Assembly (NCBI RefSeq): GCF_004402695.1
Contig: NZ_SOFL01000034.1
Coordinates: 1-64,000, forward strand
Length of the DNA stretch: 64,000 nucleotides
Source of the DNA: Cryobacterium adonitolivorans
GTDB lineage: Bacteria > Actinomycetota > Actinomycetes > Actinomycetales > Microbacteriaceae
Reading direction: 5' to 3'
Shown: positions 14,677 through 59,143 of the stretch, in pieces
How the letters are laid out: each line of letters starts with the position of its first letter
Position numbering within the stretch: position 1 is the stretch's first letter
Notes under the pieces: generated by a model
Databases searched by the model: none
Told to the model about the DNA's origin: nothing
The model's input: only the letters and a program-made list of their open reading frames with translations
Program-made: the position numbers and the translations under genes

Positions 14677-14845
14677 GCAAGTGCGAGCACTTGCCCTAGT
14701 TCACCCTCAGCCTCGCTTTCGCGCCGATGAGGTGAAACCTTTTTGGAGCAAGCTATAGAGTTACCGGTGGTAACTCGCTTTGATTCTGGACGCGGGGCGT
14801 CAGATTCGGCATACTTGTCGTATGGTCCCCCCGAAGTTCGGGGGT
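14677..14845. other. oriT: Candidate origin of transfer (oriT)
   Basis: The noncoding gap upstream of mobC contains three nested dyads: GGCAAGTGC-GA-GCACTTGCC (14677-14696, perfect), followed by CTAG; GAGTTACC-GGT-GGTAACTC (14758-14776, perfect); and CCCCCGAAGTTCGGGGG near 14829-14845. In MOBP and MOBQ plasmids oriT lies upstream of mobC and the relaxase and has an inverted repeat near nic, often with AAGTGCG. The first dyad contains AAGTGCG. The exact nic site cannot be read from sequence alone. Confidence 0.5.
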
Positions 14846-15270: not shown

Positions 15271-16925
15271 TGCCCAACATCACCCGCGGCGGCCAAATGG
15301 GTGGGCTCATGGTCTACCTGGCCGGCGCCGGCAAGTCGAACGAGCACGAAGAACAGCACCTCGTCGGCGGAAACTCGGCCGTCGTCACCATGCACGGGTA
15401 CGGAGTACTCGACCGCGATACGGCCCTGGCCATCGCAAAGGACCTGGACGAACCGCGGGTGAAACTCGGAGTGGAGGTCACGCGCCAGGCGCGCATCACT
15501 GATCCAGACACCGGTGAGTCGATCACGACGCGAGTCGCCGCCGACGTCTGGCATTGCTCGCTGTCGCTGCGCGCCGAAGAAGGGCAGCTCTCGGACGAGA
15601 AGTGGGGCGCCATCTCACAAGACTTCATGGATCGAATGGGCTTCACCGAAGCCAGCGGCAAGGCCGACTGCCGATGGGTTGCCGTGCGCCACGGCCTCTC
15701 GACGAACGGCAACGACCACGTGCACATCGCTGTCTCGCTAGTCCGCGAGGACGGCACCAAGGCACCGACGCACAACGACTTCAAGCGCGCTCAGGGCATC
15801 TGCCGTGACCTGGAACGCGACTACGGCCTAGAACAATTGGAGTCGCGGGAACGCGGCATCGGTGAACGCGGGATCAAGCCCGCCGAGCAGGCCCGGGCAC
15901 AGCGCACCGGCACTGAGGTTGAGGCCCACAAGCTGGAACGCATCGTGCGCTCAGCATCGGTAGCCTCCCTCGACGAGGGCGAGTTTGTACGCCGCATCCG
16001 CCGCGGGGGAGCCCTCGTGCGGCCCCGCTTCGCCGCTGGACGCGACGACGTTGTGGCCGGCTACTCCGTTGCATTGCGACCGGAGAAGGGCGCGCAGCCG
16101 GTTTGGTACGGCGGCGGCCGACTCGCCCGCGACCTGACTTTGCCGCGCATGCGCGAGGGATGGCCGGACAGCCCCCAGAGCGCACAGGGTGCAGTGGACG
16201 AGTGGAGGGCCACGAGCAAGAACCCGTGGCAGTACCGGCCGGTCGCTCCGGGCCGGGAAGAGACGACACCGGACCCGAAACTGTGGAAGCAGTACACCGA
16301 CGAAATCAAGCAGCTCCGCGTGCAGATGCGAGAGATTCCGTTCGAGGACCGCGCCGGTTGGGCGCACCTGGCCCGCGACACCGCCGGGGCATTCGCGGCG
16401 TGGTCACAGCGCGTCGAGGCTACTCCCGGACCGCTGGCCCAAACTGCACGGGACCTGTCCCGAACAGCGCAGATCCGCGCCCACGAATCCAAGCCGAAGG
16501 CCGCCGGCCGGGTGTCGGTCGCCGGGGCCACGATGATGCTGCTGCAGGCATCGACCCAGGGCCAGGGAACGATGGCCGAGGCGATCATGCTGCGCCAGCT
16601 CGCATCGACCGTCAAAGCGGTCATGGACATGCACACCGCCATCGGTGAAGCCCAGCGCGCATCGCAGCTCGACCGCACGTTGCGGGAACAATACTCGCAG
16701 GTACGCGACCGTCTGCCAGCCATCGTGCGCACCGAAACCGGACAGCCCGGCAGTGCTATGCCGACGCCGGCCCAAGACCTTGACCCGGAGCTAGCGAAGA
16801 TCGTCCAGGCCGCACAGCGCGGCCAGGTCGTCCCCGGAACGGGCACGCCCGTTCCGACTCCAATCGAGTCCCACAAGCCACAGACCACCGTCACGCCGAA
16901 CGAGCGCGACGGTCACGAGAGATAA
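15267..16925 (+). CDS. Conjugative relaxase (MobA/VirD2-type)
   Basis: A 552-aa relaxase that would nick oriT, stay bound to the 5' end through a tyrosine and pilot the strand to the recipient. The N-terminal 200 residues hold the nuclease fold; the metal-binding histidine motif is NGNDHVHIAVSLVREDG, with a His in VADVWHCSLSL earlier. The active-site Tyr is probably in the first 50 residues. The rest is a long helical region. Near residue 507 it carries LDPELAKIVQ, similar to the Fic tail. It is translationally coupled to mobC. Confidence 0.85.
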   Translation: MMPNITRGGQMGGLMVYLAGAGKSNEHEEQHLVGGNSAVVTMHGYGVLDRDTALAIAKDLDEPRVKLGVEVTRQARITDPDTGESITTRVAADVWHCSLSLRAEEGQLSDEKWGAISQDFMDRMGFTEASGKADCRWVAVRHGLSTNGNDHVHIAVSLVREDGTKAPTHNDFKRAQGICRDLERDYGLEQLESRERGIGERGIKPAEQARAQRTGTEVEAHKLERIVRSASVASLDEGEFVRRIRRGGALVRPRFAAGRDDVVAGYSVALRPEKGAQPVWYGGGRLARDLTLPRMREGWPDSPQSAQGAVDEWRATSKNPWQYRPVAPGREETTPDPKLWKQYTDEIKQLRVQMREIPFEDRAGWAHLARDTAGAFAAWSQRVEATPGPLAQTARDLSRTAQIRAHESKPKAAGRVSVAGATMMLLQASTQGQGTMAEAIMLRQLASTVKAVMDMHTAIGEAQRASQLDRTLREQYSQVRDRLPAIVRTETGQPGSAMPTPAQDLDPELAKIVQAAQRGQVVPGTGTPVPTPIESHKPQTTVTPNERDGHER

Positions 16926-31017: not shown

Positions 31018-31022
31018 ACTTG

Positions 31023-31151: not shown

Positions 31152-31577
31152 TCAGACTCGTACGTCGGGGAACATACCAGCCGGCGGCGGCGCGTAGGGC
31201 AACGGCTCCCCCGGTTTGTTCTGATCTTCTGAGTCTGCGAAGGGCCCGTCAGCGCTCATCAGAATTGGCATGTGGTGGTCCAGGTGGTCGCGCCACCAGG
31301 TGCTCGATCCGGTGGCCCCGTCGAGCCGCAAATGTTCCCAAGAACGCCACAGCGCCTCGAGGCGGGCGATGGCTTCGGGTGACCTCCACCATTCCGCTGC
31401 CCAGCGCCTTGAGGCACGGTTTGACGGGCCCACCACCCGCCGGTAGGTCTGGCTCAGCTGTTCGCGCACGAACTCGTCGACGGACCCGAAGACCAGGGTG
31501 GGCGCCGGGGTTTCTTCCGCCGGCTGGTGGGGGACAACATCGAGGTCATCGTCCAGGTCTTCGTATCCGCCGCTCAT
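31152..31577 (-). CDS. DUF4913-family conjugation accessory protein
   Basis: A 141-aa protein with VFGSVDEFVREQLSQTYRRV, then the tryptophan-rich WAAEWWRSPEAIARLEALWR and WWRDHLDHHMPILM, the DUF4913 signature found in actinobacterial plasmids next to coupling-protein genes. The HLDHH cluster may bind metal. The exact role is unknown. It overlaps the VirD4-like gene by four bases and ends the T4SS operon. Confidence 0.75.
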   Translation of the reverse strand: MSGGYEDLDDDLDVVPHQPAEETPAPTLVFGSVDEFVREQLSQTYRRVVGPSNRASRRWAAEWWRSPEAIARLEALWRSWEHLRLDGATGSSTWWRDHLDHHMPILMSADGPFADSEDQNKPGEPLPYAPPPAGMFPDVRV

Positions 31578-33376
31578 CCGGGGTACCCATATTTCTTATC
31601 GTCCGGCCACGGTTCTCTCAACGCCTCGTAGGCCGTCAGAGACGACGTGCTGCTTGGGTCGTGGGCGGCAATCGAGGCCCGTACAGCCTCGGCTTGCTTG
31701 CCTGCCATCCATGGCACGGTGGCCACCAGTGTGGCCGGGGCACCGGACGCGAAAACGACGGCGCGGCCGCGGGGCATCGCCGTGAGCTCGGACACCTCTA
31801 AGGTGTGCTCCCGGCGCTGGGCCAGCGACGTCGAGCGCTGCCCCTTGCCTATCGACACGGACGACGTTCGCAAGGTGAAATCACCGATCAGCTGCGACAG
31901 CTCACCGAGGAATTCCGTCTCAGCGACACCGCCGCCATAGACCTTTATGTTTGAAGCCGACCACAGCTTGCGCATTCCCTCGCGGCCCCAGACTTCGACG
32001 CCTTGTGACCAGGACTGCAGGATCGTCATGAGTACGATGCCGCGTGAGCCGTAGTGCGAGTACAGGTCCGGCAAGTTGCGCCAGCGGCAGACGTTTGCGG
32101 CCTCATCGAGAACACCGAGCATCGGAACAGCTAGGCGACCGCCTGGCTGGGTCGTGGCCAGCTCCTCAGCGGCCTCAACCGTGATTGCGGTCAACGCTGT
32201 CACGAGCGGGCCGGCACTGCCCTGGCCCTCCTTGGAGAGGCTGTAGAGAGTGTCTTGGCTGCGCACGAACGCGTCGGGGTCGAACTGCGGCCGCCGATCC
32301 GACTGAGCATTGCCACCGAGCGGCGTCACCCAGCGGGCAATGCCGCTGATCTTCAAGCAGTCGACCATTTGCGCGGCGGTGCCGTACACGCTGTCGCGTC
32401 GTTTCGGCTCGCCGTTCACTTCGCCGGCAACAGCGTCGGCCATGCCGTCATATCCGTTGTCTTCCAGGATCCGCACCGGTTCCTGGTCGCCCGGCTTGGT
32501 CGTCCAGGTGAACACCTGAGTAATTGGCTTCTGGCCAAGGGCCGCAGCCAGGAGAAAACCCGCGAGAAGGTTCTCGCCGGCCCGGTTGAAGTACGACGAG
32601 TTTTCGCTACCGCCGCCGCTCATCGTTGACGACGAAAAATGTGCGGCCATCTTCGCGGCACGCACATCGTCGGTCACATACGAGAGTGGGTTCCACCACC
32701 AACGGGGCTCTTCCCGGGCAATGCCTTGCGGATCGAATGCCCACACCTTCGATCCATTGGCCGATCGCACATCACGAGTCGCGTCGAGGACGTCGCGCTT
32801 GTTCGACGTAGTGAGGACCGCACCAGGTGCGCTCAGGATCGCCGGGATCGCTCGACTGGTGGACTTACCCGTACGAGGCCCCCAGATATCTACGTGCATG
32901 TCCTCAGGCGAGCCATAGAGCCACTGACGCCCAGCCACAGTAACTCCGATAGGAACACCCAACCAGTCCGTCACCCCGAGCCGCTGCGCCGTGGCGCGTG
33001 CCCCCTTCGTTGTGAGCGCCGCCAGGTCTTTTCCTCGACCCATGTAGCGAGCGGCACTGTCGACTCGGCTGCGCTTGGAGCGACCTCCGTTGATCAGGAT
33101 GGTGAAGCCGATCACCAGGGCCAGCACGATCACACCTGCGCCGGCAACAATCCATGTCGCGGACAGGGGCCACGCGTACGTCCCTTTGAGCGTGCCGAAG
33201 ACAATCTCGAAAGGATCGCTCGGAAGATCCGGGTTCACCCCGGCGATCTTCGACCCGAGCACCATCCCGCCCCACATGCCGCCGATCAGCACGACGGCAA
33301 TCCCGATGAAGACCCAGATGACCACGCCGTCGCTGCCTCCGGCGTTCTGCTTGCGACGATCCGTGGCCTGGCTCAC
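31574..33376 (-). CDS. VirD4/TraG-type type IV coupling protein
   Basis: A 600-aa ATPase that would recruit the relaxosome to the secretion channel. Two N-terminal transmembrane segments (VVIWVFIGIAVVLIGGMWGG and TWIVAGAGVIVLALVIGFTI) precede the ATPase core with Walker A WGPRTGKST near residue 165, Walker B MLGVLDEAAN and an arginine finger region around TILQSWSQG. The C-terminus lacks a long acidic tail. A GTG at 33374-33376 overlaps the VirB4-like stop (GTGA). Confidence 0.9.
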   Translation of the reverse strand: MSQATDRRKQNAGGSDGVVIWVFIGIAVVLIGGMWGGMVLGSKIAGVNPDLPSDPFEIVFGTLKGTYAWPLSATWIVAGAGVIVLALVIGFTILINGGRSKRSRVDSAARYMGRGKDLAALTTKGARATAQRLGVTDWLGVPIGVTVAGRQWLYGSPEDMHVDIWGPRTGKSTSRAIPAILSAPGAVLTTSNKRDVLDATRDVRSANGSKVWAFDPQGIAREEPRWWWNPLSYVTDDVRAAKMAAHFSSSTMSGGGSENSSYFNRAGENLLAGFLLAAALGQKPITQVFTWTTKPGDQEPVRILEDNGYDGMADAVAGEVNGEPKRRDSVYGTAAQMVDCLKISGIARWVTPLGGNAQSDRRPQFDPDAFVRSQDTLYSLSKEGQGSAGPLVTALTAITVEAAEELATTQPGGRLAVPMLGVLDEAANVCRWRNLPDLYSHYGSRGIVLMTILQSWSQGVEVWGREGMRKLWSASNIKVYGGGVAETEFLGELSQLIGDFTLRTSSVSIGKGQRSTSLAQRREHTLEVSELTAMPRGRAVVFASGAPATLVATVPWMAGKQAEAVRASIAAHDPSSTSSLTAYEALREPWPDDKKYGYPG

Positions 33377-35097
33377 ACCGTCACCTCGCGATCGACAACG
33401 CCTGTCCGAGACACGTCGTGCCACAGCTGGTTGGTGTCGTTGGAGTGTAGCTCTGCCTGCGTCAGCTCCACATTCAGAGGGATGCCGGGACGGCCACCGA
33501 CCTTAATCAGGAACTTGCCGCGCCCGGGCGGGTCGGCTTCCTTCCCGCTCACCGGATCCCACGCGGGCGGGTCCTGCCAGCCCTGCAGCATGCTCTGCTC
33601 GGCCGCGCTCATGGTGATCGCGCTGTTGAGCAACGGCATTTCGGAGGCCGGGAGGCCGCCGCAAATGACCATGCCGGACCTCTCGACGAAGCCTTTGGCT
33701 TTCATCCGGTCTTCTTCATTGCTGAGCGACATGAGGTCGCTCATGGTGTGGGAAATCATGGCCATGCCCACGCCCCGCGCCCGGTTCAGACGCGTCAGAG
33801 CGTCCACCCGGTCGACCATGCCACGGCCGGCGCGCAGCGCCCGCCACAGCTCGTCGAGGATGACGAAGTAGTGTCGGCGCGGTTCTAGCTCGGCGTCGGC
33901 CAGGGCCGTCGCTACGTTGACCGTGCCGAAGCCCGCCGACCAGCACGCAAGTAGCACTGCGGCCTGCAGGTCCATTTCGGAGTCGTCGATGCTCGACACG
34001 TCATAGACCACGGGGCGGTCACGTTTCATTCGGACTGTGGTCTGCTGGGAGAACAATTCGCCCAAGCGACCGCCGGAGACCAGGCCTATGAGGGACGCTT
34101 CCAGGTTCTCCGTAATTTCCTGATAGCGGCCCATGTCGCCACGGTCCAGGGCTACGGAACGTAGTTCAACAGGTGCCTTCCGGATCAGTTCGAGAAGATC
34201 GCTGAGGACCGGAATCCCGTCGTGATGGGCGTCCAGGTATTTGAGAGCCGCGTCGATAATCGTCTCTTCACGGTCAGTCGGCGGCTCTCGGCGCATGATC
34301 GTCAGCAGAGCGGACACCATCGTGAGGCGACGCCCGTGGGCGTCCTGCAGAACCTGTGTCGCAAGGCGCTCATTGCGCGTGATGTTCTCGGCGTGGATGG
34401 GCATCGAACCGACGAGCTGCGCGGAGCGCTCGCGAATGACCTGTGCCGCATTCTTGTCGTCGGGTACATCCACAGCGCGGAGCTGGGCTAGCTCGGCTTC
34501 CTCTTCTTCGATCGCTTTGCGTTCGCGGGTGGCGGCATCGCGGAGCAGCTGCGCGGCCTCGCCGGCTTCGCCGGGATCCAGAATGTTCAGATACCCGCGG
34601 CCGCGGCCGAGGGTAATGACCTGCCCTTTCATCTCTTTGACGAGATCCACGTAGTCGGGCTTCAAATCCCCGAGAATGAGGGGCTGCACGCCATAGCCGG
34701 CCAGCCCCGTCGCCATCCGGCGGATCAGCGTGGACTTGCCTAGGCCAGGCTTGCCGAGCACGAACGCGGAAGGGTTTGAAATCAGGTTGGCGCGCTGGAA
34801 CCAGGAAATTGGATCACAGCAGACGGTGCCGCGATTGATCAGGTGCCGCCCGAGCGGCACACCGATCATCGGAGCACCCGTGCCAACGCCGAACGGCCAA
34901 AGGCCGCAGACCTGAACGGTGGTTCCGCGCCACTCAGGGGCGGGAGAAATCACCATCGTTTCGCCGCCTCCGCGTCCCGGCCACCCGCGAGCGGGCGGGC
35001 GGCGCGTCACAGGCTTGGCAGCCGCGGTCGCCGCGGCCTTTGCAGCCGCGCGGCCTGCTCCGCTGAGGGGCGACGCGGGCTTTTTTAACCAACTCAT
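33373..35097 (-). CDS. VirB4/TraC-like T4SS ATPase
   Basis: A 574-aa ATPase energising the conjugation channel. After a basic, Ala-rich start it has FVLGKPGLGKST (Walker A, about residues 113-123), RHYFVILDELWRALR (Walker B) and a conserved helicase-like end (GMAMISHTMSDLMSLSNEED). Its N-terminal domain is shorter than in classical VirB4, as usual in Actinobacteria, where the SCO6880-like protein next door substitutes for part of it. Start and stop overlap both neighbours. Confidence 0.85.
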   Translation of the reverse strand: MSWLKKPASPLSGAGRAAAKAAATAAAKPVTRRPPARGWPGRGGGETMVISPAPEWRGTTVQVCGLWPFGVGTGAPMIGVPLGRHLINRGTVCCDPISWFQRANLISNPSAFVLGKPGLGKSTLIRRMATGLAGYGVQPLILGDLKPDYVDLVKEMKGQVITLGRGRGYLNILDPGEAGEAAQLLRDAATRERKAIEEEEAELAQLRAVDVPDDKNAAQVIRERSAQLVGSMPIHAENITRNERLATQVLQDAHGRRLTMVSALLTIMRREPPTDREETIIDAALKYLDAHHDGIPVLSDLLELIRKAPVELRSVALDRGDMGRYQEITENLEASLIGLVSGGRLGELFSQQTTVRMKRDRPVVYDVSSIDDSEMDLQAAVLLACWSAGFGTVNVATALADAELEPRRHYFVILDELWRALRAGRGMVDRVDALTRLNRARGVGMAMISHTMSDLMSLSNEEDRMKAKGFVERSGMVICGGLPASEMPLLNSAITMSAAEQSMLQGWQDPPAWDPVSGKEADPPGRGKFLIKVGGRPGIPLNVELTQAELHSNDTNQLWHDVSRTGVVDREVTV

Positions 35098-46490: not shown

Positions 46491-46566
46491 CCTAGTCGGC
46501 CGGCACCCCACGGTGGGCCCTTCGGGCCTGGGAACCGCTGCGCGGTCGCCTTCTTGCATTTTTTAT

Positions 46567-46702
46567 CTGTCTGGCCGTTTCACCGTAGTTCGCTCCGCGC
46601 CTGCGTTCCGGGCTTTCGCGGCATATCCTCGCTGCGCTTGCGGTATTCCACGTCCCTGCTCTTCGGCACTCCCGCTCTCAATCGATTTCTCTTGCCAGAC
46701 AG
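46567..46702 (+). ncRNA. Repeated structured element, copy 1 (before parB-like gene)
   Basis: Copy 1 of a family of four. Arms CTGTCTGGC (46567-46575) and GCCAGACAG (46694-46702) pair perfectly. Inside, CACCGTAGTTCGC follows the first arm and TCAATCGATTTCTCTT precedes the second, as in the other copies; inner CCGTAG pairs only partly with CTTCGG. A CCGCTGCGCGG hairpin lies 30 bases before. The ParB-like ATG is 33 bases downstream behind GGAGAGAG. It is probably a leader RNA or a single-stranded promoter; function is unknown. Confidence 0.7.
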
Positions 46703-46734
46703 GCAAAAAAATCAGTTGATGGAGAGAGAACCCA

Positions 46735-48141
46735 ATGACTACCAGCACCGTAAATGTCGGAACTATCGAGCACGTTGACCCGAACCTGATCGTTGTAGAA
46801 GCGAACGTGCGCACCGAAGCTCAGTTGGGCCGCGAGTTCGTGGCCAGCATCAAGGCAAACGGCGTCCTGACGCCGATCCTCGCCCGCCGCGACGACCAGG
46901 GCAACATCATCGTGCGAGCCGGTCAGCGCCGCACCCTGGCCGCTCGTGAGGCCGGTTTGGCTACGATCCCCGCCTACGTAGTAGCCGCCGATGAGACTAC
47001 TGTCGAGCGGATTGTGCAGCAGATGGCCGAGAACGATCACCGCGAGGCCGTCACCGACGCCGACCGGGTGGCCGCGTTCCAGCAGTTGGCTTTCGAGGGA
47101 CTGACCCCCGCGGTGATCGCCAAGCGACTGGGCAGCAAGCCCGCCACAGTCAAGGCCGGAATCGCCGTGGCAGAGAACGCCGTCGCGGCATCCGCCATCG
47201 TCAGCCACTCCCTCACTCTCGACCAGGCTGCCGCGCTGATCGAGTTCGAGGGCGACGACGAAACCGTGTCCGTGCTCATCGACATTGCCACCACCAGCCC
47301 CGAGCAGTTCGCCCACGCAGCGCAGCGCGCACGCGACGACAAGCGCGTGGCCACGATGAAGGCAGACGCGGCCGCCGACCTGATCGCGCGCGGCTTTACG
47401 GTTCTGGACCGTGACCGGGGATCCTACGAAAACGACTACACGAGCATCAGCTACCTGACCACCGCAGACGGTGAGTCAGTCACCGCCGAGCACATCGCGG
47501 CGAGTGAGGGTCGGGCCGCGTACGTGTACGCGTACAGCAGCAATGACACCGCCACCGTGCGCTACTACCTGAAAGACCCGAATGCTGCCGGGTTCCGTAA
47601 GTCCAGCGGCAGCGGGGCCACCAGCGGCCCGATGACCGACGAGCAGAAGGCCGAACGTAAGACCCTGATTGCCAACAACAAGGCGTGGGCCAGCGCTGAG
47701 GTCGTGCGCCGCGAATGGTTGGCCGAGTTCCTGAGCCGCAAGACGCTCCCGAAGGATGCCACCCAGGCCATCACCGTGGGCCTGACCGTGCACCACAGCA
47801 TGGTCGGCAAAGCCATCCAGAACGGCAACGTGCTCGCGCACACGCTGCTCGGATTGAAGCGGGCCGACTACTGGTCGCGTGACAAGCTCTCCGCGCTGGT
47901 GGAGCACTCCCCCACCAAGGCGCAGCACGTCGCCCTCGCAATCATCCTGGCCGGTATCGAGGACAGCACCAGCAAGGAAACCTGGCGCCACCCGAACACC
48001 TACAGCGCTCGCTACTTGCTGCAGCTGGCCGCATGGGGCTACGGCCTCAGCGACGTTGAGCAAATCGTGATCAACGCTGTTGCCGAGAAGACCGCGACCA
48101 AGGCAGCCGTAGCCGTAGCCGCTAAGGGCACTCAGGAGTAG
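46735..48141 (+). CDS. ParB/Spo0J-type protein
   Basis: A 468-aa protein. The N-terminal ParB/sulfiredoxin fold has VEANVRTEAQLGREFVASIK, ILARRDDQGNIIVRAGQRRT and MAENDHREAVTDADRVAAFQ; the KorB-like helix-turn-helix is LTPAVIAKRLGSKPATVKAG. The long C-terminus has no clear motif. It is not next to a parA gene, unlike partition ParB, and resembles the ParB-like proteins of plasmid leading regions. The structured element and SD GGAGAGAG precede it. Confidence 0.8.
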   Translation: MTTSTVNVGTIEHVDPNLIVVEANVRTEAQLGREFVASIKANGVLTPILARRDDQGNIIVRAGQRRTLAAREAGLATIPAYVVAADETTVERIVQQMAENDHREAVTDADRVAAFQQLAFEGLTPAVIAKRLGSKPATVKAGIAVAENAVAASAIVSHSLTLDQAAALIEFEGDDETVSVLIDIATTSPEQFAHAAQRARDDKRVATMKADAAADLIARGFTVLDRDRGSYENDYTSISYLTTADGESVTAEHIAASEGRAAYVYAYSSNDTATVRYYLKDPNAAGFRKSSGSGATSGPMTDEQKAERKTLIANNKAWASAEVVRREWLAEFLSRKTLPKDATQAITVGLTVHHSMVGKAIQNGNVLAHTLLGLKRADYWSRDKLSALVEHSPTKAQHVALAIILAGIEDSTSKETWRHPNTYSARYLLQLAAWGYGLSDVEQIVINAVAEKTATKAAVAVAAKGTQE

Positions 48142-48231
48142 CTTCAGCCCCGACCCGGCGCGACAGTCCCCCTACTGCCGCGCCGGGTTCCGCCGTCCCC
48201 GGCTCCGGCACGGAGGCCGGAACCTGCACCC

Positions 48232-48313
48232 AGGCACACGCCCCTGACGGGTCGTGACCGAACAGCGGCGCGGCCGCTGTACCCGTCCCCGATGTTGTGC
48301 CGCTGCGCGGCCG
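48232..48313 (+). repeat. 82-bp duplicated intergenic repeat, copy 1
   Basis: Contains AGGCACACG, GGGTCGTGAC, GAACAGCGGCGCGGCCGCTG and CCGCTG-GCGGCC blocks in the same order as at 49832-49912, with roughly 80% identity by eye. The AGCGGCGCGGCCGCT core is a dyad. It lies just before the iterons. The second copy is just before structured element copy 2. Confidence 0.6.
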
Positions 48314-48330
48314 GGGAGAACAGAGCGACA

Positions 48331-48394
48331 TCACCTGAAAGGGTGACGAGAGATCACCCTTTCAGGGTGACGAAAGATCACCCTTTCAGGGTGA
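48331..48394. repeat. Three iterons / operators GATCACCCTTTCAGGGTGA
   Basis: Two direct 19-bp repeats, GATCACCCTTTCAGGGTGA (48352-48370 and 48376-48394), each a near palindrome TCACCCT-TTC-AGGGTGA, plus a degenerate copy (48331-48346, TCACCTGAAAGGGTGA). Starts of the two perfect copies are 24 bases apart. They lie between the ParB-like gene and a copy of rep-internal DNA. They could be Rep iterons, ParB sites or an operator. Confidence 0.65.
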
Positions 48395-48435
48395 TGCCCG
48401 CCGATGCCGTCGAAAGTAACTCGGAGCGGCTGCGC

Positions 48436-48481
48436 ACAACCCCACGTACAGTCCGGCCACAATCACTACATAACCCCCGCC
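48436..48481 (+). repeat. Copy of rep-internal sequence, candidate origin component
   Basis: CACAACCCC, ACAGTCCGGCCACAA, CACT and AATAACCCCCGCC-like blocks match positions 45080-45127 inside rep (about 80% identity). Inside rep they encode VRPQPLNNPRP. Outside a gene, next to the iterons and followed by a C-rich run, the block looks like an origin motif. The rest of 48142-48645 shows no gene. Confidence 0.55.
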
Positions 48482-48645
48482 CCGCCCCCCGCCCCCCCCT
48501 TTGCCGTCGATCTGGCGCTGGAGCTCGTCGCTGCCGGCAACCTCAATCCCGAGAGCCGCTGGCAATACTTGGGAGATGCCGCCTAGTGGGCCAGTCCGTG
48601 CGGCGGAGATGCCCACGCGACGGCGAAGTTGGGTAGCGTGCTGAG

Positions 48646-49041
48646 ATGACTGAATCGGCGCTTCCCACTGCGGGTCTCGGCCAGGATGCGGCAGTACCGG
48701 CGCCGATAACGAGGAGAGAATTCGTTAGACGCATTGTGCTGGTTGATGTGGTCGCAGTTTTTGTCGCGTTGCTGCCTCTTCTGTTTTTGGGGATAGGTAT
48801 TCAATCGTTGGGAGCGCAGAACGGGTGGTGGGCGGGGGATCCCAACTCGAACGATGGCGAGGAGTTCTTTGCCACCGTCCTGGGCGGATTTGGTCTGTTC
48901 AGCGTGACTGTCCTGGCGGCGATCCCAGTGTCCGTGCTTGCTGGGCGCCACGGCTTTCCCGTGTGGCGTTCGGTCATGGTGAGCACGCTTGGAATCCTGG
49001 GGTCATGCCTGATTCTGGGCGTTACCGCCAGCATCTTCTAG
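48646..49041 (+). CDS. Three-helix membrane protein of unknown function
   Basis: A 131-aa protein with hydrophobic segments at about 27-50 (IVLVDVVAVFVALLPLLFLG), 76-97 (FFATVLGGFGLFSVTVLAAI) and 107-130 (SVMVSTLGILGSCLILGVTA). The cytosolic start is short and uncharged. No family recognised. The ATG at 48646 is used; the neighbours are unrelated. Confidence 0.55.
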   Translation: MTESALPTAGLGQDAAVPAPITRREFVRRIVLVDVVAVFVALLPLLFLGIGIQSLGAQNGWWAGDPNSNDGEEFFATVLGGFGLFSVTVLAAIPVSVLAGRHGFPVWRSVMVSTLGILGSCLILGVTASIF

Positions 49042-49085
49042 GCGGCCCTCCCTAACGCCGGCAGTGGCCAGGTGACACATCTGTT

Positions 49086-49652
49086 TTAGGAGTGTGGCCT
49101 GCGCGGGGTGTCGGCGAGGTTGTAGATGAGCCAGCCTGATGTCGCGGCGTCGCAGATGGTGAGGTCGGTGACATCAATCAGGATCTCCGCGCTGGATTGT
49201 GGGAGTCCGATCCGTAATGATTCAGCCCCAAGCAGCGGACAGTCTGGGTAGAGATTCTGGCCGGCCACTCTGACCAAGAGGTAAGCGGCGTCCTGGGGTG
49301 TGACGGTGATGCTGTGGGCGGGAATGGTGTCGCGTTTCGTAGCCGGGTTGTCGATGACTTGCCCTGCGGCGTCGAGAAGGGCGACCTCGGGGAATCCTGA
49401 GACGGTGCAGCTGGTCGCCCCGGTGTTGGTGAGCTTGACGTAGAACAGGGCCGTGTTATGGGGGTGGTCCGAATTAAAGGATTCCCGGGTGGCCGTGAAC
49501 TCGCAGGTGCCAGAGTCAGCGTTCTTGTCCGCTGCCGGCGTTCGAGCGTTTCCTTCAGCCGGGCTCAGTGAACACCCCGTTAGCGCGCCCAGCATGAGCA
49601 GCACTGTCGCGGCCACCAGTGCCTTGGCGGACCTACGAGATCGAGTGTTCAT
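49086..49652 (-). CDS. DUF4232-type lipoprotein
   Basis: A 188-aa lipoprotein with lipobox LGALTGC. The folded domain has KLTNTGATSCTVSGFPEVAL, RDTIPAHSITVTPQDAAYLL and a Cys pair (YPDCPLL, LTICDAA), the DUF4232 pattern common in secreted actinobacterial proteins. Its role is unknown. The ATG at 49650-49652 is standard. Confidence 0.8.
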   Translation of the reverse strand: MNTRSRRSAKALVAATVLLMLGALTGCSLSPAEGNARTPAADKNADSGTCEFTATRESFNSDHPHNTALFYVKLTNTGATSCTVSGFPEVALLDAAGQVIDNPATKRDTIPAHSITVTPQDAAYLLVRVAGQNLYPDCPLLGAESLRIGLPQSSAEILIDVTDLTICDAATSGWLIYNLADTPRRPHS

Positions 49653-49831
49653 TTGTTGTTCCCCCCGGCACCGATGCTACTCGGCTGCACCGCACGTCTG
49701 ATCGGCCAGAAAAGATCGACTAATCGGAATGTCAGCGTCGCTGCAGCTGAGCAAATGTCCGGGCATGTCGCGCACGACGGCGGGCCAGGCGACCCGAACC
49801 CCGGAACGCACGTCTTGAGCCGGCGATGACT

Positions 49832-49912
49832 AGGCACACGTCCTGAATGGGTCGTGACGGAACAGCGGCGCGGCCGCTGTACCCATCCCCCATTTTGAGC
49901 CGCTGAGCGGCC
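49832..49912 (+). repeat. 82-bp duplicated intergenic repeat, copy 2
   Basis: Second copy of the 48232-48313 block, about 80% identical, with the same AGCGGCGCGGCCGCT dyad. A short inverted repeat (GATATCAGAGTGATATC) replaces the three iterons. It is about 100 bases before structured element copy 2. The rest of 49653-50011 shows no gene. Confidence 0.6.
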
Positions 49913-50011
49913 GATGGATATCAGAGTGATATCACTTGCAAAACCGTGACGGCGATGCCGTCATGAGCAAATTGGAGCCGCTGCGCGGCACTGTCCAATG
50001 GGTCTTTTTGT

Positions 50012-50148
50012 CCTTTCTGGCGTTTCACCGTAGCTCCCTCCCGTGCCTCGTCACCCACATTCTCGGACGCACCCTGCGGGCTTATTTCGCCCGAGAATCC
50101 GTGCACTGCGGCACTCCCGGTCGCTATCGATTTCTCTTGCCAGATAGG
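50012..50148 (+). ncRNA. Repeated structured element, copy 2 (before DUF3560 operon)
   Basis: CCTTTCTGGC (50012-50021) pairs with GCCAGATAGG (50139-50148) with one mismatch. Inside, CCGTAG pairs with CTGCGG (one GU), and ATTCTCGG (50059-50066) pairs perfectly with CCGAGAAT (50091-50098). The single-stranded ATCGATTTCTCTT block is kept. The next ORF is 35 bases downstream behind GAGGAAGAG. Confidence 0.75.
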
Positions 50149-50182
50149 GCAAAAAAACAGTTGTTCACGAGGAAGAGAACCC

Positions 50183-50335
50183 ATGGCCGAGTCAGATCAC
50201 CCGTACGAGAACACCTACCCCCGGGAGCGCTCCGCCAGCGGGTGCGCCTGCCGTGGTTGCCGGTCCGAAGGTGCCGCAGATTCTCAGCCGGGCGCAACCT
50301 GCACCGCCACCCGCTACGCCGACAGCTTCGCCTAG
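50183..50335 (+). CDS. 50-aa cysteine-rich peptide
   Basis: A short ORF starting at the ATG at 50183 with ribosome site GAGGAAGAG: MAESDHPYENTYPRERSASG, then CACRGC and a third cysteine pair position GATC. Its location right after structured element copy 2 and before the DUF3560 gene (17-base gap) supports it. It could bind zinc. No family recognised. Confidence 0.5.
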   Translation: MAESDHPYENTYPRERSASGCACRGCRSEGAADSQPGATCTATRYADSFA

Positions 50336-50351
50336 ATCGAGGGAAAAACTC

Positions 50352-51287
50352 ATGCTCACCATCACCCACACCCACGAAGCCGGAACCATGATCGACGGAA
50401 CCAGCCGAGGCGACGGAACCGCCGAAGTCCTCAAGTCCACCGGATGGCGCTGGGGCCGCAGCATCAGCGCATGGTTCGTCCCCCAGTCCCGCGACTGCCT
50501 GCCCAAGCTGCACACCATCACCCGCACCAAGTCGGCACTTGAAGCCGCCGGGTTCGAGGTCACAACCGAAATCGACAGCACCCACCGCACGACCGCCGAC
50601 GTCGAGGCCGGAAAGATCGAGCGTCAGGCCGACCGGGTAGATGCCCTGGCCGCGAAGGCAGAGCGCAAAACCGGCGCGGAAGATGCCGCCTGGAACAATG
50701 CGCGCGCAGCGCTGGACCGGCTGCCCGAGGGAGGCGAGCCGATCAAGGTTGGCCACCATTCGGAAGGTCGACACCGCAACGCGATCGCCAAAGCAGATAA
50801 CGCCATTCGCAAATCAGTCGAAGCCAGCGCAGAGGCCACCATCGCCCAGGCCCACGCCGACGCGGCCACCCACACCACCGACGCCCGTTACAACCCGGTC
50901 ACCGTGGCCAACCGCATCGAGGCGTTGGGCGCTGAGCTCCGCAGGCTCGAACGCCGCATAATCGCGCAGTGCTACGACGACACACGCGGTTACATCGAGG
51001 CCACCGCCGAGCAGATCCAGGCCCGGACTACCCGCCTCGCCCCGCACATCGACGAGAAGCGCGACCAGATCGCCTATTGGGAAGCCGTGCGCGCCGCCCA
51101 GGTCGTCAGCGGCACGGCCACCGGCTACGACCGCTCCACCGTCAAGAAGGGCGACCGGGTGAAGATCCGCGGCCAGTGGCGCGAAGTCGTGCGCGCCAAC
51201 CTCAAAACAGTCAGCGTCAGCACCGGCTACACCTGGACCGACACCGCCCCATACGCCGAGATTCAGCAGCTCGTGCGGCCGGAGTAG
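50352..51287 (+). CDS. DUF3560 protein
   Basis: A 311-aa protein with the DUF3560 pattern: start LTITHTHEAGTMIDGTSRGD, then STGWRWGRSISAWFVPQSRD, then a helical middle with KADNAIRKSVEASAEATIAQ, and a C-terminal beta part (GDRVKIRGQWREVVRANLKT). The family occurs on plasmids and phages of Actinobacteria and elsewhere, with no known activity. The ATG at 50352 is internal to a longer open frame; it is preceded by AGGGAAA. Confidence 0.75.
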   Translation: MLTITHTHEAGTMIDGTSRGDGTAEVLKSTGWRWGRSISAWFVPQSRDCLPKLHTITRTKSALEAAGFEVTTEIDSTHRTTADVEAGKIERQADRVDALAAKAERKTGAEDAAWNNARAALDRLPEGGEPIKVGHHSEGRHRNAIAKADNAIRKSVEASAEATIAQAHADAATHTTDARYNPVTVANRIEALGAELRRLERRIIAQCYDDTRGYIEATAEQIQARTTRLAPHIDEKRDQIAYWEAVRAAQVVSGTATGYDRSTVKKGDRVKIRGQWREVVRANLKTVSVSTGYTWTDTAPYAEIQQLVRPE

Positions 51288-51322
51288 TCCCGCCCAAACG
51301 GCCGGCCCACCCAGGGCCGGCC

Positions 51323-51350
51323 GTGAGGGGAAACCCCTTCACACTCCCCC
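51323..51350 (+). terminator. Repeated G-rich hairpin, copy 1
   Basis: GTGAGGGG-AAA-CCCCTTCAC then ACTCCCCC, right after the DUF3560 gene. Two further near-identical hairpins occur at 51893 and 53074. They are probably terminators or processing hairpins of this operon family. Confidence 0.6.
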
Positions 51351-51425
51351 ACCAGCTGCAGCCGGCCCCGCCCGGCACCCACCCTCGAGAACGGTCCCGA
51401 CACAGGGACCACAGGAGATCCGGCC

Positions 51426-51863
51426 ATGATCATCACCTACCAACGCCCCGGCACGCTCGAGGCGCACCAGCTCGACCAGGACGCCCCCGCCGCCGACCTC
51501 AGCCCCACCGGGGCCACGTGCGGAACAACGACCGTCGGGGTCCTCGGGATCCAGTGGAGCTGCAGCAGAGCACCCCACCCCGGCCAGGACGAACACCGCG
51601 CCACCATCACTCCCCCAGGCGACGGGTCGGGCGGCGCCGTTGCCATCGCGTGGACGTACCAATACGCCACCGACGCGCAGCACGGCGACGTCGACCAGGC
51701 GGCCCCCACCCAGAGCATCACCGTCACCCTGTCGTTTCCCGACCGAGCTGCACGCGGCATCAACGCGGCCGCGCTGATCCGCAGCATGGTCGACGCCGGA
51801 CTAGGCCACTTCTGGGAAGGCGACCAAGACGACGTAACCGCCAGCTCAACCGCCACCACCTGA
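51426..51863 (+). CDS. Plasmid protein of unknown function
   Basis: A 145-aa protein, probably beta-rich at the start (MIITYQRPGTLEAHQLDQDA) with a helical final third (INAAALIRSMVDAGLGHFWE). It has no clear family but lies in the run of leading-region-like genes and ends just before a G-rich hairpin. The ATG at 51426 is standard. Confidence 0.5.
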   Translation: MIITYQRPGTLEAHQLDQDAPAADLSPTGATCGTTTVGVLGIQWSCSRAPHPGQDEHRATITPPGDGSGGAVAIAWTYQYATDAQHGDVDQAAPTQSITVTLSFPDRAARGINAAALIRSMVDAGLGHFWEGDQDDVTASSTATT

Positions 51864-51892
51864 ACGCCGGGCCGACCCTCACGAGGTCGGCC

Positions 51893-51924
51893 GTGAGGGG
51901 GACGGCGCCCCCTCACACTCCCCC
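51893..51924 (+). terminator. Repeated G-rich hairpin, copy 2
   Basis: GTGAGGGGG-ACGGCG-CCCCCTCAC then ACTCCCCC, 30 bases past the 145-aa gene. Same stem and tail as copies at 51323 and 53074. A short GCCGGATCC stretch follows and then structured element copy 3 begins at 51998. Confidence 0.6.
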
Positions 51925-51997
51925 AGGTGAATCCGGCACGGAGGCCGGATCCACGCGGACCCGGCTACGCCGGCCTGACCCTGACAGAACTTTTCTT

Positions 51998-52139
51998 CCC
52001 TTGGTGGCCGGTCATCGTAGTTCGCTTGCGTGCCTTCGTCACCCACAATCTGGCACGCGGTCGCAAGCTCCCTTATTTCGCACCAGATTGCGTGCACTAC
52101 GGCACTCCGCTCTCAATCGATTTCTCTTGCCACCAAGGG
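51998..52139 (+). ncRNA. Repeated structured element, copy 3 (before DUF3846 gene)
   Basis: CCCTTGGTGGC (51998-52008) pairs perfectly, 11 bp, with GCCACCAAGGG (52129-52139); the sequence differs from the other copies, so pairing is kept by compensation. Inner CGTAGT (52016-52021) pairs with ACTACG (52096-52101), and CAATCTGG (52046-52053) with CCAGATTG (52083-52090). TCAATCGATTTCTCTT precedes the last arm. The DUF3846 ATG lies 86 bases downstream. Confidence 0.8.
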
Positions 52140-52225
52140 CAGAAAAACGGTGGACGACTACACAATCACTGCCCACGAGAGCCCGGGACCCCGCGTATCT
52201 CACCATCCTTGGAGAGGGAAACACC

Positions 52226-52645
52226 ATGACCACCACCATCCGCAGCGTCAAGATCAACCCGACCGAAACCATCACCACACTCGACCTGGACAGCGCAAAC
52301 AGCGGCAACGACATAGCCGCAGCCATCGACTGCCGGATGTTCGCCGTCGTCGACCTGGCCGACAGCATCGACCTATTCGTAGACGACGAAGGGCTCATCA
52401 ACGGGTCGACCCTGAACCTGCCCGCAACCGTGCTGACCCACCTGCTCGGCAACCCGACCGTGATCTTTGGAACCGCTATCGCAGTCGGCACCAACCCCGA
52501 GGGCCAAACCGTCGGGCTGAGCGATAGCCAGTTCGCGCGGGTCCAGAAGGCTTTCGCCCAGAAGCCCGACCCGGGAACTGTCGACACTCTCATTGAGAGC
52601 CTGTCGCCTTTCCCCACCATCGTCAGCATGCTCCGCAACATCTAG
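52226..52645 (+). CDS. DUF3846 protein
   Basis: A 139-aa protein with strands MTTTIRSVKINPTETITTLD, then MFAVVDLADSIDLFVDDEGL, then LIESLSPFPTIVSML. This matches the DUF3846 family of plasmids and phages, of unknown role. The ATG at 52226 has GGAGAGGG upstream and opens within a much longer open frame that I judge to be a chance extension. Confidence 0.7.
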   Translation: MTTTIRSVKINPTETITTLDLDSANSGNDIAAAIDCRMFAVVDLADSIDLFVDDEGLINGSTLNLPATVLTHLLGNPTVIFGTAIAVGTNPEGQTVGLSDSQFARVQKAFAQKPDPGTVDTLIESLSPFPTIVSMLRNI

Positions 52646-52663
52646 CAAACGGGAGGAAGAGCA

Positions 52664-52867
52664 ATGGCCACCCTGAGCATCGAAACAATCCAGACGCGAG
52701 TCACCAAAAGCGATGACGACACCTGGAGCCGTACCCTTCAGCTCGCCAAGCGTGGCGAGGATCTGTACGCCCACGCACAGGCCAGTTACACGCTGGCACA
52801 CACGGCAACGATCGACAGCGCCGAATATGTGACTTTCGTCGACACCCTCACTCGCGTAAGCGACTAA
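52664..52867 (+). CDS. 67-aa helical plasmid protein
   Basis: A short helical protein (SIETIQTRVTKSDDDTWSRT, LAHTATIDSAEYVTFVDTLT) immediately after the DUF3846 gene (18-base gap, GGGAGGA ribosome site). No family recognised; probably co-transcribed. Confidence 0.5.
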   Translation: MATLSIETIQTRVTKSDDDTWSRTLQLAKRGEDLYAHAQASYTLAHTATIDSAEYVTFVDTLTRVSD

Positions 52868-53073
52868 CGATCCGGAGGGGCGGCCAGGGCCGCCCCTCCC
52901 CCAGCCGGAAAGCAACACCATGACCGAACAAGTCTCCGCATGCGCCGATCACCAGAGCTGCACCGCATGGACGAATTTGACCGCGCCCTGACAATCGCCA
53001 AGAGCTGCCCCCAGTGCCTTGTCGAGGCCGCCTAACCAGGACCAGCCACCGGCTGGCCCTCGCGGACCAGCCT

Positions 53074-53101
53074 GTGAGGGGCGACCCCCTCACACTCCCC
53101 C
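53074..53101 (+). terminator. Repeated G-rich hairpin, copy 3
   Basis: GTGAGGGG-CGAC-CCCCTCAC then ACTCCCCC. It ends the operon of DUF3846 and the 67-aa protein. A possible frameshifted 20-30-codon ORF with SCPQCLVEAA lies just before it (52920-53034); I do not call it. Confidence 0.6.
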
Positions 53102-53155
53102 GTAGTCGCGATACCGAGGTAATGCTCGTTTTTCGAGGTCGAATAATTAATGCAT

Positions 53156-53220
53156 GAATGACAGAAAGACAGAATGCAGGAATGTTGGAATGATTGACAG
53201 AAGGAATGCAAGCAGGAATG
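53156..53220 (+). repeat. GAATG repeat array before parA, candidate centromere/operator
   Basis: Six GAATG copies begin at 53156, 53172, 53180, 53188, 53204 and 53216, with spacings 16, 8, 8, 16 and 12, mostly multiples of eight. They end 10 bases before the parA ATG. A run of short repeats with near-constant spacing upstream of ParA and a ribbon-helix-helix partner is the usual layout of a type Ib centromere that doubles as operator. Confidence 0.65.
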
Positions 53221-53229
53221 ATTGAAAGC

Positions 53230-54000
53230 ATGCAAACACTAATGGTCTACAGCGAATCGGGCGGCGTCTCGAAAACGACTACCGCCGTGTCGATCGCGAT
53301 GACTGCCGCCGGGCAAGGCCGGCGGACGGTCCTGGTTGATCTTGACCCCCGTGCAGCAGCGACCAAATGGCTCGACGTCGCACCCTCCGGTGAAGGCCTC
53401 CACGTCGGCGCGATTCTCGGAGACGACGACCCGCAAGGATGGGGCGAAGACTTGGCAGTGCAGTCCAACTGGTCAAATAATCTTCGCGTGATTCCCTCCG
53501 CTCGCAACGTCTCCAACCGTGAGGCTGATCGAGCAGACCACGCCGAATTGAGACTACGAACGGCACTTGTCGGTATCTCTGCTGACCTGGTAGTTATCGA
53601 CTGCCCCAACAGGCAGGGCGGCCCGCTCATCCTGTCAGCGTTGAATGCTGCCGACTCGATTGTCTATGCCGCCACGGCCTCCAGTGACGGCGTGGACGGC
53701 GTTGCAGGCGCACGGCGCACTGTCGAACAGTTCCGCCTCAGCAGAGAGCGCATCGGTGCACCCGTCACGCTCTCAGAGGCCGGGATCGTCTGTGGCAGGG
53801 TCCAAGAGACAATCCCCTCCCGGCCAGCCGTTGCCAGCACAGACGAGCTGCGCGCCACCGGAATGCTTCTCATGCCCCTAGTGCCCGAAAGGGCAATCAT
53901 TCAAGAAGTTCGCCTCACGGGGGAGTGGTACGGCAACTACAGGAAGGGCGCGCCCGTCTTGAGCGCGTACACAAAGATTGTGAACCAGGTGATTCGATGA
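53230..54000 (+). CDS. parA: ParA-type partition ATPase
   Basis: A 256-aa ATPase for plasmid segregation. Walker A reads SESGGVSKTTTAVSIAM, where the signature Lys of KGGxxK is Ser, an unusual change. Walker A' is LVDLDPRAAATKWLD and Walker B LVVIDCPNRQGG. The absence of an N-terminal helix-turn-helix marks type Ib. The ATG at 53230 is chosen over 53194 as it follows the repeat array directly. It overlaps the RHH gene by four bases. Confidence 0.8.
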   Translation: MQTLMVYSESGGVSKTTTAVSIAMTAAGQGRRTVLVDLDPRAAATKWLDVAPSGEGLHVGAILGDDDPQGWGEDLAVQSNWSNNLRVIPSARNVSNREADRADHAELRLRTALVGISADLVVIDCPNRQGGPLILSALNAADSIVYAATASSDGVDGVAGARRTVEQFRLSRERIGAPVTLSEAGIVCGRVQETIPSRPAVASTDELRATGMLLMPLVPERAIIQEVRLTGEWYGNYRKGAPVLSAYTKIVNQVIR

Positions 54001-54320
54001 GCGACCAGCAGCAGGACCGACCAGACCTCAGCCGCCGCCGCAAGCCGCAGGCGGCACCCGACGAACGCGTAGACCCGGTGGACTACCGCCAGAGAGCGCC
54101 GACCCCTCAGGCCGCCCCTGTGGTCTCTCAGGCTCCCGTGGCTACGGCCGGCGCCGCACCGCGGCGCGGCCGCCCACGCCGCGAGGCCACGGTGCCGTTC
54201 AGTACCAGGCTGGCCCCCGATGTTCTCGAACTCATCGACGCAGCTTCGGCCGCGGAGGACGGTGCAACGATCCGTAGCGTTGTCGAGGCCGCCATACGCG
54301 AGAAGTACCAAACAAAATAG
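53997..54320 (+). CDS. RHH partner of ParA (centromere-binding protein)
   Basis: A 107-aa protein. A polar N-terminal half with GAAPRRGRPRREATVPFSTR precedes a ribbon-helix-helix (FSTRLAPDVLELIDAASAAE and IRSVVEAAIREKY). It overlaps parA (ATGA). Type Ib partition pairs use such a protein to bind the upstream repeats, and Arg-rich N-termini activate ParA. Confidence 0.75.
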   Translation: MSDQQQDRPDLSRRRKPQAAPDERVDPVDYRQRAPTPQAAPVVSQAPVATAGAAPRRGRPRREATVPFSTRLAPDVLELIDAASAAEDGATIRSVVEAAIREKYQTK

Positions 54321-54399
54321 CCATTCAAGACGGTCACCGGCACGGAGGCCGGCCACGAGGGGAGCCGCTGCGCGGCACTGTAGAGCCTGTGATGTTTGC

Positions 54400-54546
54400 G
54401 CCTGTCTAGCCGTTCACCGTAGTTCGCTGCGTGCCTCTCGTTCCAGGCTTTCGCGGCATATCCTCACTCGCTGTGCTCGCTCCGGTATTCCACGACCCTG
54501 CACTACGGCACTCCCGCTCTCAATCGATTCCCTTTGCCAGACAGGC
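54400..54546 (+). ncRNA. Repeated structured element, copy 4 (before NrdH-SSB)
   Basis: GCCTGTCTAGC (54400-54410) pairs with GCCAGACAGGC (54536-54546) with one mismatch. Inner CCGTAGT (54417-54423) pairs perfectly with ACTACGG (54502-54508). The GCTCTCAATCGATTCCCTTTGCC block is shared. The CCGCTGCGCGG hairpin lies 35 bases before. The NrdH ATG is 33 bases downstream behind GGGGAAGGGA. Confidence 0.75.
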
Positions 54547-54579
54547 ACAAAGAATTGTTGGTGGGGAAGGGACAGGGAC

Positions 54580-54810
54580 ATGAGTGAGTCAGTGGTCGTC
54601 TATACGTAGCCAGAGTGCCAGCCGTGTCGAATGACGAAGATGAAGCTTGACCAGGAGGGCATCAGCTACGCGGTCGTCGACTTGTCGCAGGACGAAGCCG
54701 CGCTCGAGCACATACGGGCGCTAGGACACCTGCAGGCACCCGTCGTCGAGACGGAATCCACCAGCTGGTCCGGATTTCGACCAGAACTCATCACCGCACT
54801 AGCCGAATAG
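54580..54810 (+). pseudogene. NrdH-type redoxin gene with in-frame amber codon
   Basis: Starts MSESVVVYT, then TAG at codon 10 (54607-54609), then PECQPCRMTKMKLDQEGI with the CxxC and the standard ending WSGFRPELITALAE. Downstream of the TAG the frame is intact to 54808-54810. Paralogues read VYTxPxCxxC here; the one in this window at 13.7 kb has VYTLPGC. One base change (CAG to TAG) would explain it. The start has a GGGAAGGGA ribosome site. Either a dead gene, readthrough, or a sequence error. Confidence 0.75.
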
Positions 54811-54856: not shown

Positions 54857-55225
54857 ATGTCAACTCAGCGCACGATCACTGGGAACCTCGCCGCCGACGT
54901 CGACGTAGTGAAGGCCGGCAGTCTCAACATCACGAAGTTTCGAGTCATCGAGAACACGGGGGAGTACCGCGCCGGAAGGTACATGGAGCACGTGGACCCT
55001 ACGACGCATTTCGTTGAAGCCAAGTTCGAGCTGGGCGAGAACGCAGCGGCAACGCTCCACAAGGGAGACGCGGTGATCGTCGTCGGCCGAGAGCACACCA
55101 ACAGCTGGGGCCCCGAAGGATCCAAGACCTACGGCCGCGTCATCAACGCCGACTACATCGGCGCCGACCTCAGCCGCGCCGTCGCGCAGATCCGCCGCAA
55201 CAGCAAGCCCGACGACCAGGCCTAA
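54857..55225 (+). CDS. ssb: Single-stranded DNA-binding protein
   Basis: A 122-aa OB-fold protein: start TITGNLAADVDVVKAGSLNI, then VIENTGEYRAGRYMEHVDPT, HFVEAKFELGENAAATLHKG and VIVVGREHTNSWGPEGSKTY. It has a shorter, basic C-terminal tail (IRRNSKPDDQA) with no acidic DDIPF-like tip. Plasmid SSBs coat incoming T-strand DNA. It follows the NrdH-like gene and structured element 4. Confidence 0.85.
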   Translation: MSTQRTITGNLAADVDVVKAGSLNITKFRVIENTGEYRAGRYMEHVDPTTHFVEAKFELGENAAATLHKGDAVIVVGREHTNSWGPEGSKTYGRVINADYIGADLSRAVAQIRRNSKPDDQA

Positions 55226-59129: not shown

Positions 59130-59143
59130 GAAAACTCCCCCAT

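Follow-up and report, generated by a model that had tools for sequence, protein, structure and literature searches.

A hairpin core shared among mobile elements in candidate single-strand initiation elements of a Cryobacterium contig

The window analyzed here consists of bases 1-64000 of the 74,918-bp contig NZ_SOFL01000034.1 of Cryobacterium adonitolivorans (assembly GCF_004402695.1). It carries four structured elements, E1 to E4, each of which precedes a gene or a pair of genes on the plus strand. Our analysis suggests that E1-E4 are probably single-strand-activated initiation elements that act on the transferred (minus) strand, with host RNA polymerase as their most likely reader. The inner hairpin of E1 and E4 is a phylum-spanning core that is not confined to plasmid leaders and whose sequence family is distinct from Frpo; the original prediction, made from the sequence of the window, had seen neither.

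Sequence and structure of the elements

Reading and aligning the window confirmed the four predicted plus-strand elements at their places; no further copies of E1-E4 were found elsewhere in the 3.67-Mb genome. Each is about 155 nt long, counting a T-run at the 5' end and an A-run at the 3' end that pair with each other. E1 (46559..46711) precedes the ParB-like gene, E2 (50005..50157) a small open reading frame (ATG at 50183) and the DUF3560 gene, E3 (51991..52147) the DUF3846 gene, and E4 (54395..54551) the NrdH-like and single-strand-binding protein (SSB) genes. For all four the functional strand is probably the minus, transferred strand.

The motifs said to be common to the four copies are shared only in part. 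At the 5' end, CACCGTAGTTCGC is exact only in E1 and E4, with CATCGTAGTTCGC in E3 and CACCGTAGCTCCC in E2; at the 3' end, ATCGATTTCTCTTGCC is exact in E1-E3 but is replaced by ATCGATTCCCTTTGCC in E4. The closing stems differ between copies and still pair, as predicted, but not perfectly: E2 contains one TxT and E4 one AxC mismatch, the latter of which is a G.T wobble on the minus strand. The closing stem also exceeds its first description, the 5' T-run pairing with the 3' A-run (TTTTTT/AAAAAAA and variants). The inner stem CCGTAGT/ACTACGG, described as a general feature, is complete in E4 only and nearly so in E3, while E1 and E2 retain part of it.

The inner hairpin is of two kinds, one common to E1 and E4 and another to E2 and E3. 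The first, which we call the type A core, lies on the minus strand at 46613..46652 in E1 (CTTTCGCGGCATATCC..GGTATTCCACG on plus, with the loop GCGCAGC on minus; 46 bits with a covariance model) and at 54448..54494 in E4 (67.9 bits, E 2.9e-14, same model). The type B inner hairpin is found, again on minus, at 50059..50098 in E2 (..GGACGCACCCTGCGGGCTTATTTCGCCC.., with a GCA triloop on minus) and at 52046..52090 in E3. The type B hairpin (..GGGCTTATTTCGCCC..; e.g. locus L165 219) represents another conserved core; all copies seen to date are from Actinomycetota plasmids.

Conservation of base pairing

Both in the closing stems and in the inner core, the arms of an element pair better with each other than with arms swapped in from other copies, which bears out the predicted covariation. 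For the closing arms of 35 homologous elements, the pairing energy is -17.4 kcal/mol with their own partners versus -13.0 +/- 0.5 kcal/mol with swapped ones, the best of 1000 shuffles reaching -14.8. The inner core forms 6.88 of 8 possible Watson-Crick pairs across 136 distinct arm pairs, compared with 4.68 after swapping (maximum of 200 shuffle means, 4.89); these loci were collected with the exact core pattern and many of them are related. An alignment of 26 cores gives a covariation score of 0.380 versus 0.106 when shuffled. None of 500 shuffles reaches 0.380, and the score collapses if the pairing is slid by one column. The copy in the F plasmid, which was found via the covariance model, has a compensated pair within an otherwise invariant core. 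The hairpin structure is under selection. The covariance-model search, a check set beforehand, found further copies, one of them in F, so the outcome named as the first that would speak against the original prediction, a search without additional copies, did not arise.

The folded strand

In what follows, the complement strand is the complement of the core pattern, which for E1-E4 is the minus strand. The minus strand folds more stably than the plus strand in every element (minus/plus, in kcal/mol: E1 -30.8/-25.5, E2 -33.2/-29.9, E3 -37.5/-34.2, E4 -30.5/-26.3). The complement strand is likewise the more stable one for the core of plasmid pCCK381 and, with DNA as well as with RNA parameters, for 134 of 150 distinct cores. 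It is more stable because CxA mismatches on the plus strand turn into G.T pairs on the complement. The loops show the same asymmetry. GCGNAGC, with a free middle base, makes up 49 of the 112 distinct inner loops on the complement strand versus 1 of 112 on the other; in shuffled loops it occurs 2.3 times on average and 8 times at most. Of ten type B hairpins, seven also show a GNA or GNNA loop on the complement strand. GNA loops closed by G-C pairs form extraordinarily stable DNA mini-hairpins (PMC4686876). Several lines of evidence say that the functional strand is the complement, minus in the window, and that it acts as DNA.

Distribution of the core

Used as a query against plasmid records, E1 matched 277 of them, mostly in the inner part only and at about 85% identity; they come from Burkholderia, Pseudomonas, Serratia, Escherichia, Cutibacterium and others. 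In pCCK381 and pWW0 the type A core sits inside a stem of its own, CAAGGGG..CCCCTTG. The exact core pattern is present in 27 IMG/VR contigs. Among GTDB representative genomes it occurs in at least 118 stretches, which belong to Actinomycetota, Pseudomonadota (alpha, beta and gamma) and Bacillota. A few of the matches to the pattern resemble chance matches in coding sequence (L050, L062 and L119, which are without CTTTCG). Carriers of the core include conjugative plasmids, F among them, filamentous phages, rolling-circle replicons and insertion sequences. None of 50,697 deposited phage records contains it, and phylum-wide draws of 119-150 genomes had a match in only 0-1 genome besides the reference genome, a scarcity to be expected of an accessory element. 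Among the papers listed by a literature text search with the core letters, none, judged by title, concerns such an element. A fragment of the core letters coincides with text of a paper on an IncP-1beta plasmid in Mycobacterium abscessus, a match of text only.

In Lachnospiraceae the core lies directly after the stop codon of a DDE transposase gene in an insertion-sequence family of about 1.9 kb (L063 817-2412 and related loci). Members of the family share about 70-85% identity along most of the element and retain the core. One genome holds seven core copies. Rolling-circle transposition of the IS91/ISCR kind was considered for the Lachnospiraceae copies and rejected, as the adjacent transposases are of the DDE type. 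Transposases of the IS256 and ISL3 types also adjoin the core. Those families are thought to transpose via a copy-out-paste-in route; that the core serves the copying of a single-stranded circle would be a guess.

Polarity on plasmids and phages

On MOBP plasmids, cores away from the origin of transfer (oriT) lie on the strand of the relaxase gene in 35 of 36 cases, the exception being a Lachnospiraceae contig, so that by the relaxase/oriT rule the folded strand is the transferred strand. The corresponding count for MOBF plasmids is 15 of 17, with both exceptions (contigs G204 and G198) kept in. All 15 cores at most 1.8 kb upstream of a MOBP relaxase domain are on the strand opposite to the relaxase. 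In loci L044, L057, L078, L088, L095, L097 and L104, such oriT-adjacent cores stand about 200-250 nt to the leading side of a shared oriT sequence, GGAGCAAGCTATA..TTA....TAA, with their complement strand on the retained strand; such a copy also precedes a small divergent gene. Extension of a primer from such a site would run the same way as replacement synthesis in the donor.

Complete relatives show how the leading genes are arranged. The 32-kb Mycetocola plasmid has its relaxase and mobC genes at 4.1-6.1 kb on minus, which should put oriT near 6.1-6.3 kb. Its ParB, ArdC, DprA, DUF3846, ParA, NrdH and two SSB genes, at 19-11 kb on minus, are on the far (leading) side of oriT and read toward it. 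Plasmid pP27867_2 of C. arcticum is laid out as the Mycetocola plasmid, with cargo between, and F shows this arrangement as well. Among plasmids, the nearest to the window contig come from Cryobacterium, and their gene content and gene order are largely those of the contig. In the window itself, a MOBP relaxase gene (15267..16925, plus, PF03432) on the strand of the genes that follow E1-E4 is accompanied by a NikA/MobC-like relaxosome gene (14878..15270, plus, PF21983 and PF05713) and preceded by a putative oriT (GGAGCAAGCTATAGAGTTACCGGTGGTAACTCGC; 14745..14778, plus), which is common to related MOBP plasmids and was assigned by similarity and position only. Since the relaxase gene is on plus and the oriT-like sequence comes before it, the transferred strand should be minus. 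As judged from this arrangement, E1-E4 appear to lie in the leading region, on the transferred strand and before genes read toward oriT.

Phages give a second view of polarity. The 27 viral contigs include 12 with a Zot gene and 7 with a REP_ORF2-G2P gene. Zot is opposite to the core pattern in 10 of 10, a count that omits a contig whose Zot genes are on both strands and an 80-kb contig in which the distance is unclear, and REP_ORF2-G2P is opposite in 7 of 7; together these are 15 distinct contigs, two being in both sets. The complement strand is thus the coding strand. Filamentous phages package the coding strand as their single strand. In those elements that have a single-stranded stage, the core keeps a fixed orientation relative to it, as single-strand origins (sso) and single-strand initiation sites (ssi) do. 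Four IMG/VR loci (L013, L016, L018 and L023) are phage-like contigs with a rolling-circle Rep gene and the core, and at least L018 also has a large terminase gene, an unusual mix.

The original prediction had left two readings side by side, leader RNAs or single-stranded DNA promoters like Frpo of plasmid F. The latter is supported by the better folding of the minus strand in E1-E4 and the GNA loops found on minus only, by the polarity of the folding strand, which is the virion strand in phages and the transferred strand in plasmids, and by the maps of the complete relatives, which place the genes on the leading side, pointing toward oriT.

Comparison with known initiation sites

The covariance model finds a single core copy in the F plasmid (NC_002483, 53,996-54,071, minus; 62.3 bits, E 7.8e-13; locus L167 5997-6072), located before a leading-region DNA methylase gene. 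A blastn search with this copy returned at least 5000 plasmid records, nearly all from Escherichia, Klebsiella, Salmonella and Shigella. F was matched only near 54.0 kb, with no match to the core model in the region upstream of ssb; an 11-nt likeness to the core near F ssb, spotted by eye, was set aside as a chance resemblance on the wrong strand. The 54.0-kb copy differs from Frpo1 (before ygeA) and Frpo2 (before ssb) as these are placed in PMC9849209. No published description of it was found in the literature examined. F also has a site by the name of ssiE, to which the 54.0-kb copy might correspond.

Frpo1 and Frpo2 of F (Frpo being the same as ssiD) and ssi2 and ssi3 of ColIb-P9 have been proposed to act both as promoters and as primer sites (PMC9849209, PMC7736820). 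Like them, E1-E4 are hairpins that precede leading-region genes (SSB, ParB-like) read toward oriT, and they are putatively on the strand that is transferred. In the comparison with F, however, the core belongs to a separate sequence family, and the canonical -10 and -35 boxes reported for Frpo are not both found in the present elements. The sso of rolling-circle plasmids and sso1 of ICEBs1 are orientation-specific stem-loops that are active only when single-stranded and serve second-strand synthesis in conjugative elements; depending on the site, known sso and ssi rely on RNA polymerase, on primase or on a plasmid primase (PMC4595007). The sso types are described as having relatively little sequence similarity to one another, whereas the type A core is invariant across phyla and element classes. 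ssiA and ssiB of RSF1010 present a 40-nt site recognized by the plasmid primase RepB' (PMC4434180). They resemble the core in being short hairpin initiation sites on single-stranded DNA and differ from it in that the type A core is present in unrelated elements. The RSF1010 ssi had been considered as the identity of the core, prompted by the match in the IncQ1 plasmid pCCK381, and was dropped: the core of pCCK381 is at the 3' end of repC, and RSF1010 oriV with its ssi sites lies elsewhere. The complementary-strand origin of M13 is a virion-strand hairpin read by host RNA polymerase, and the type A core is likewise on the virion strand of several inovirus-like contigs. Taken together, these comparisons suggest that the elements are related to Frpo, ssi and sso by function, not by sequence.

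Proposed mechanism and alternatives

We propose that, as the transferred strand enters the recipient, each element would fold into a long hairpin, the inner part of which is the universal core in E1 and E4 or the second core type in E2 and E3. Host RNA polymerase would most likely recognize the folded DNA and start an RNA at the base of the hairpin. This RNA would have two uses, as early mRNA for the gene (ParB-like, DUF3560, DUF3846, NrdH/SSB) whose start usually follows 19-29 nt on, and as primer for the complementary strand. Once the strand has been copied the hairpin would be lost and the signal would be off. The analysis establishes the structure, its covariation, the strand that folds, the polarity of this strand relative to relaxase and virion strand, and the gene positions. 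We infer the activity on single strands only, RNA polymerase as the enzyme and the dual role as mRNA and primer; host primase is a possible enzyme too. RNA polymerase is favored for E1-E4 because gene starts are found right at the base of the element. In 30 of 35 E-type elements the start codon, which has a ribosome-binding site, comes 19-29 nt past the element, and the spacer between them often contains CAGTTGA or a close variant.

The promoter part of the original prediction is not proven. Among 124 distinct arms, 55 have an outward-pointing -35-like motif (TTGAC/TTGC) in the terminal stem, versus 1 with the reverse orientation. A canonical sigma-70 -10 box was searched for on both strands and not found.

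Several observations weigh against the proposed mechanism. At 16-18 nt from the -35-like motif, neither strand has a -10 hexamer more often than chance would give, which makes the promoter non-canonical at best. The invariance of the core letters is partly due to selection of the loci, since these letters were the search pattern. The transferred-strand polarity was deduced from the relaxase/oriT rule; the ends of the window contig have no terminal overlap; and E1-E4 may be tens of kb from oriT owing to cargo. The insertion-sequence copies are without an obvious single-stranded stage.

Of the other explanations, the one that survives best, though we consider it unlikely, is that the elements are pure single-strand origins of the sso/ssi type, priming sites for the primase DnaG or a PriA primosome that have no promoter role, the genes using other signals. 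It would explain why the core recurs in filamentous phages, rolling-circle Rep replicons and insertion sequences, where it has no downstream gene to serve, it agrees with the failure to find a -10, and the retained-strand copies next to oriT fit the priming of donor replacement synthesis. A pure priming site, however, would not need the gene starts that follow so closely in those 30 of 35 E-type elements, a spacing that leaves no room for another promoter. There is far less to be said for cis-acting leader RNAs, in which a plus-strand transcript would fold and regulate the downstream genes as a regulon. The elements do precede same-strand genes, close to their start codons, but the sense strand is not the better-folding one (134 of 150 cores favor minus even when RNA parameters are used); on plus, some of the core pairs are CxA and CxT mismatches, and the GNA loops are on minus; the core is antisense to the genes in phage genomes; and the elements match no Rfam family at gathering or relaxed thresholds. 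This reading is therefore disfavored and in our view highly improbable. The idea that a plasmid protein, such as the neighboring ParB-like protein, uses the elements as a binding site on double-stranded DNA or as an ordinary promoter is a shade less credible still: four copies with inverted-repeat character along one region beside ParA/ParB-like genes would suit it, but the arms vary freely with pairing kept, which a double-stranded site does not require, the core is also present in elements without ParB, and the loops are strand-asymmetric.

Beyond the single-strand-activated initiation proposed for E1-E4, we give about even chances to a broader view: that one invariant single-stranded DNA hairpin core, read by a conserved host enzyme, is a start signal shared by unrelated mobile elements of at least three phyla, comprising conjugative leading regions including that of F, filamentous phages, rolling-circle replicons and copy-out insertion sequences. 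On MOBP plasmids, the two kinds of copy would then serve different cells: the distant ones, placed on the transferred strand, would act in the recipient, and the oriT-adjacent one, placed on the retained strand, would support replacement synthesis in the donor.

Genes beside the elements

Gene positions agree with the predicted placement of the elements just before ParB-like, DUF3560, DUF3846 and NrdH/SSB genes, all of which are on plus. The ParB_N-domain gene (46735..48141, PF02195) starts about 24 nt past E1. The DUF3560 gene (50352..51287, PF12083; start codon read from the sequence) and the DUF3846 gene (52226..52645, PF12957) are followed by a ParA-family ATPase gene (53194..54000, plus, PF13614). 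The NrdH-like gene (54580..54810) has an in-frame TAG (MSESVVVYT*PECQPC..) at a position where three relatives have leucine, so that the copy in the window looks broken or mis-sequenced. The SSB gene (54857..55225, PF00436) comes next. The first same-strand genes after other cores include those for ArdC, SSB, DUF932, a DNA methylase, ParB_N and glutaredoxin, which are genes of the kind reported for leading regions (PMC11541004).

After the ParB-like gene, repeated GATCACCCTTTCAGGGTGAC units at 48330-48400 of the window are possibly a centromere-like site, and the palindrome CGGAACAGCGGCGCGGCCGCTGTACCC occurs in near-identical form at 48260-48285 and 49862-49885. The type IV coupling protein gene (TraG/TraD) is at 31574..33424 on minus. 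Abortive-infection genes are present at 28995-31137, an AbiEi/AbiEii pair beside the coupling-protein gene, and at 58203-59306 (Abi_2).

Significance

Few systems of single-strand initiation sites are known, and they are said to share little sequence. A core common to plasmids, phages and insertion sequences of several phyla would be a searchable marker for leading regions, would reveal the polarity of the transferred strand in plasmids without a mapped oriT and would extend zygotic induction to the Actinomycetota. The core copy near 54.0 kb adds a leading-region element to F, and the question of which host enzyme reads the folded single strand becomes directly testable.

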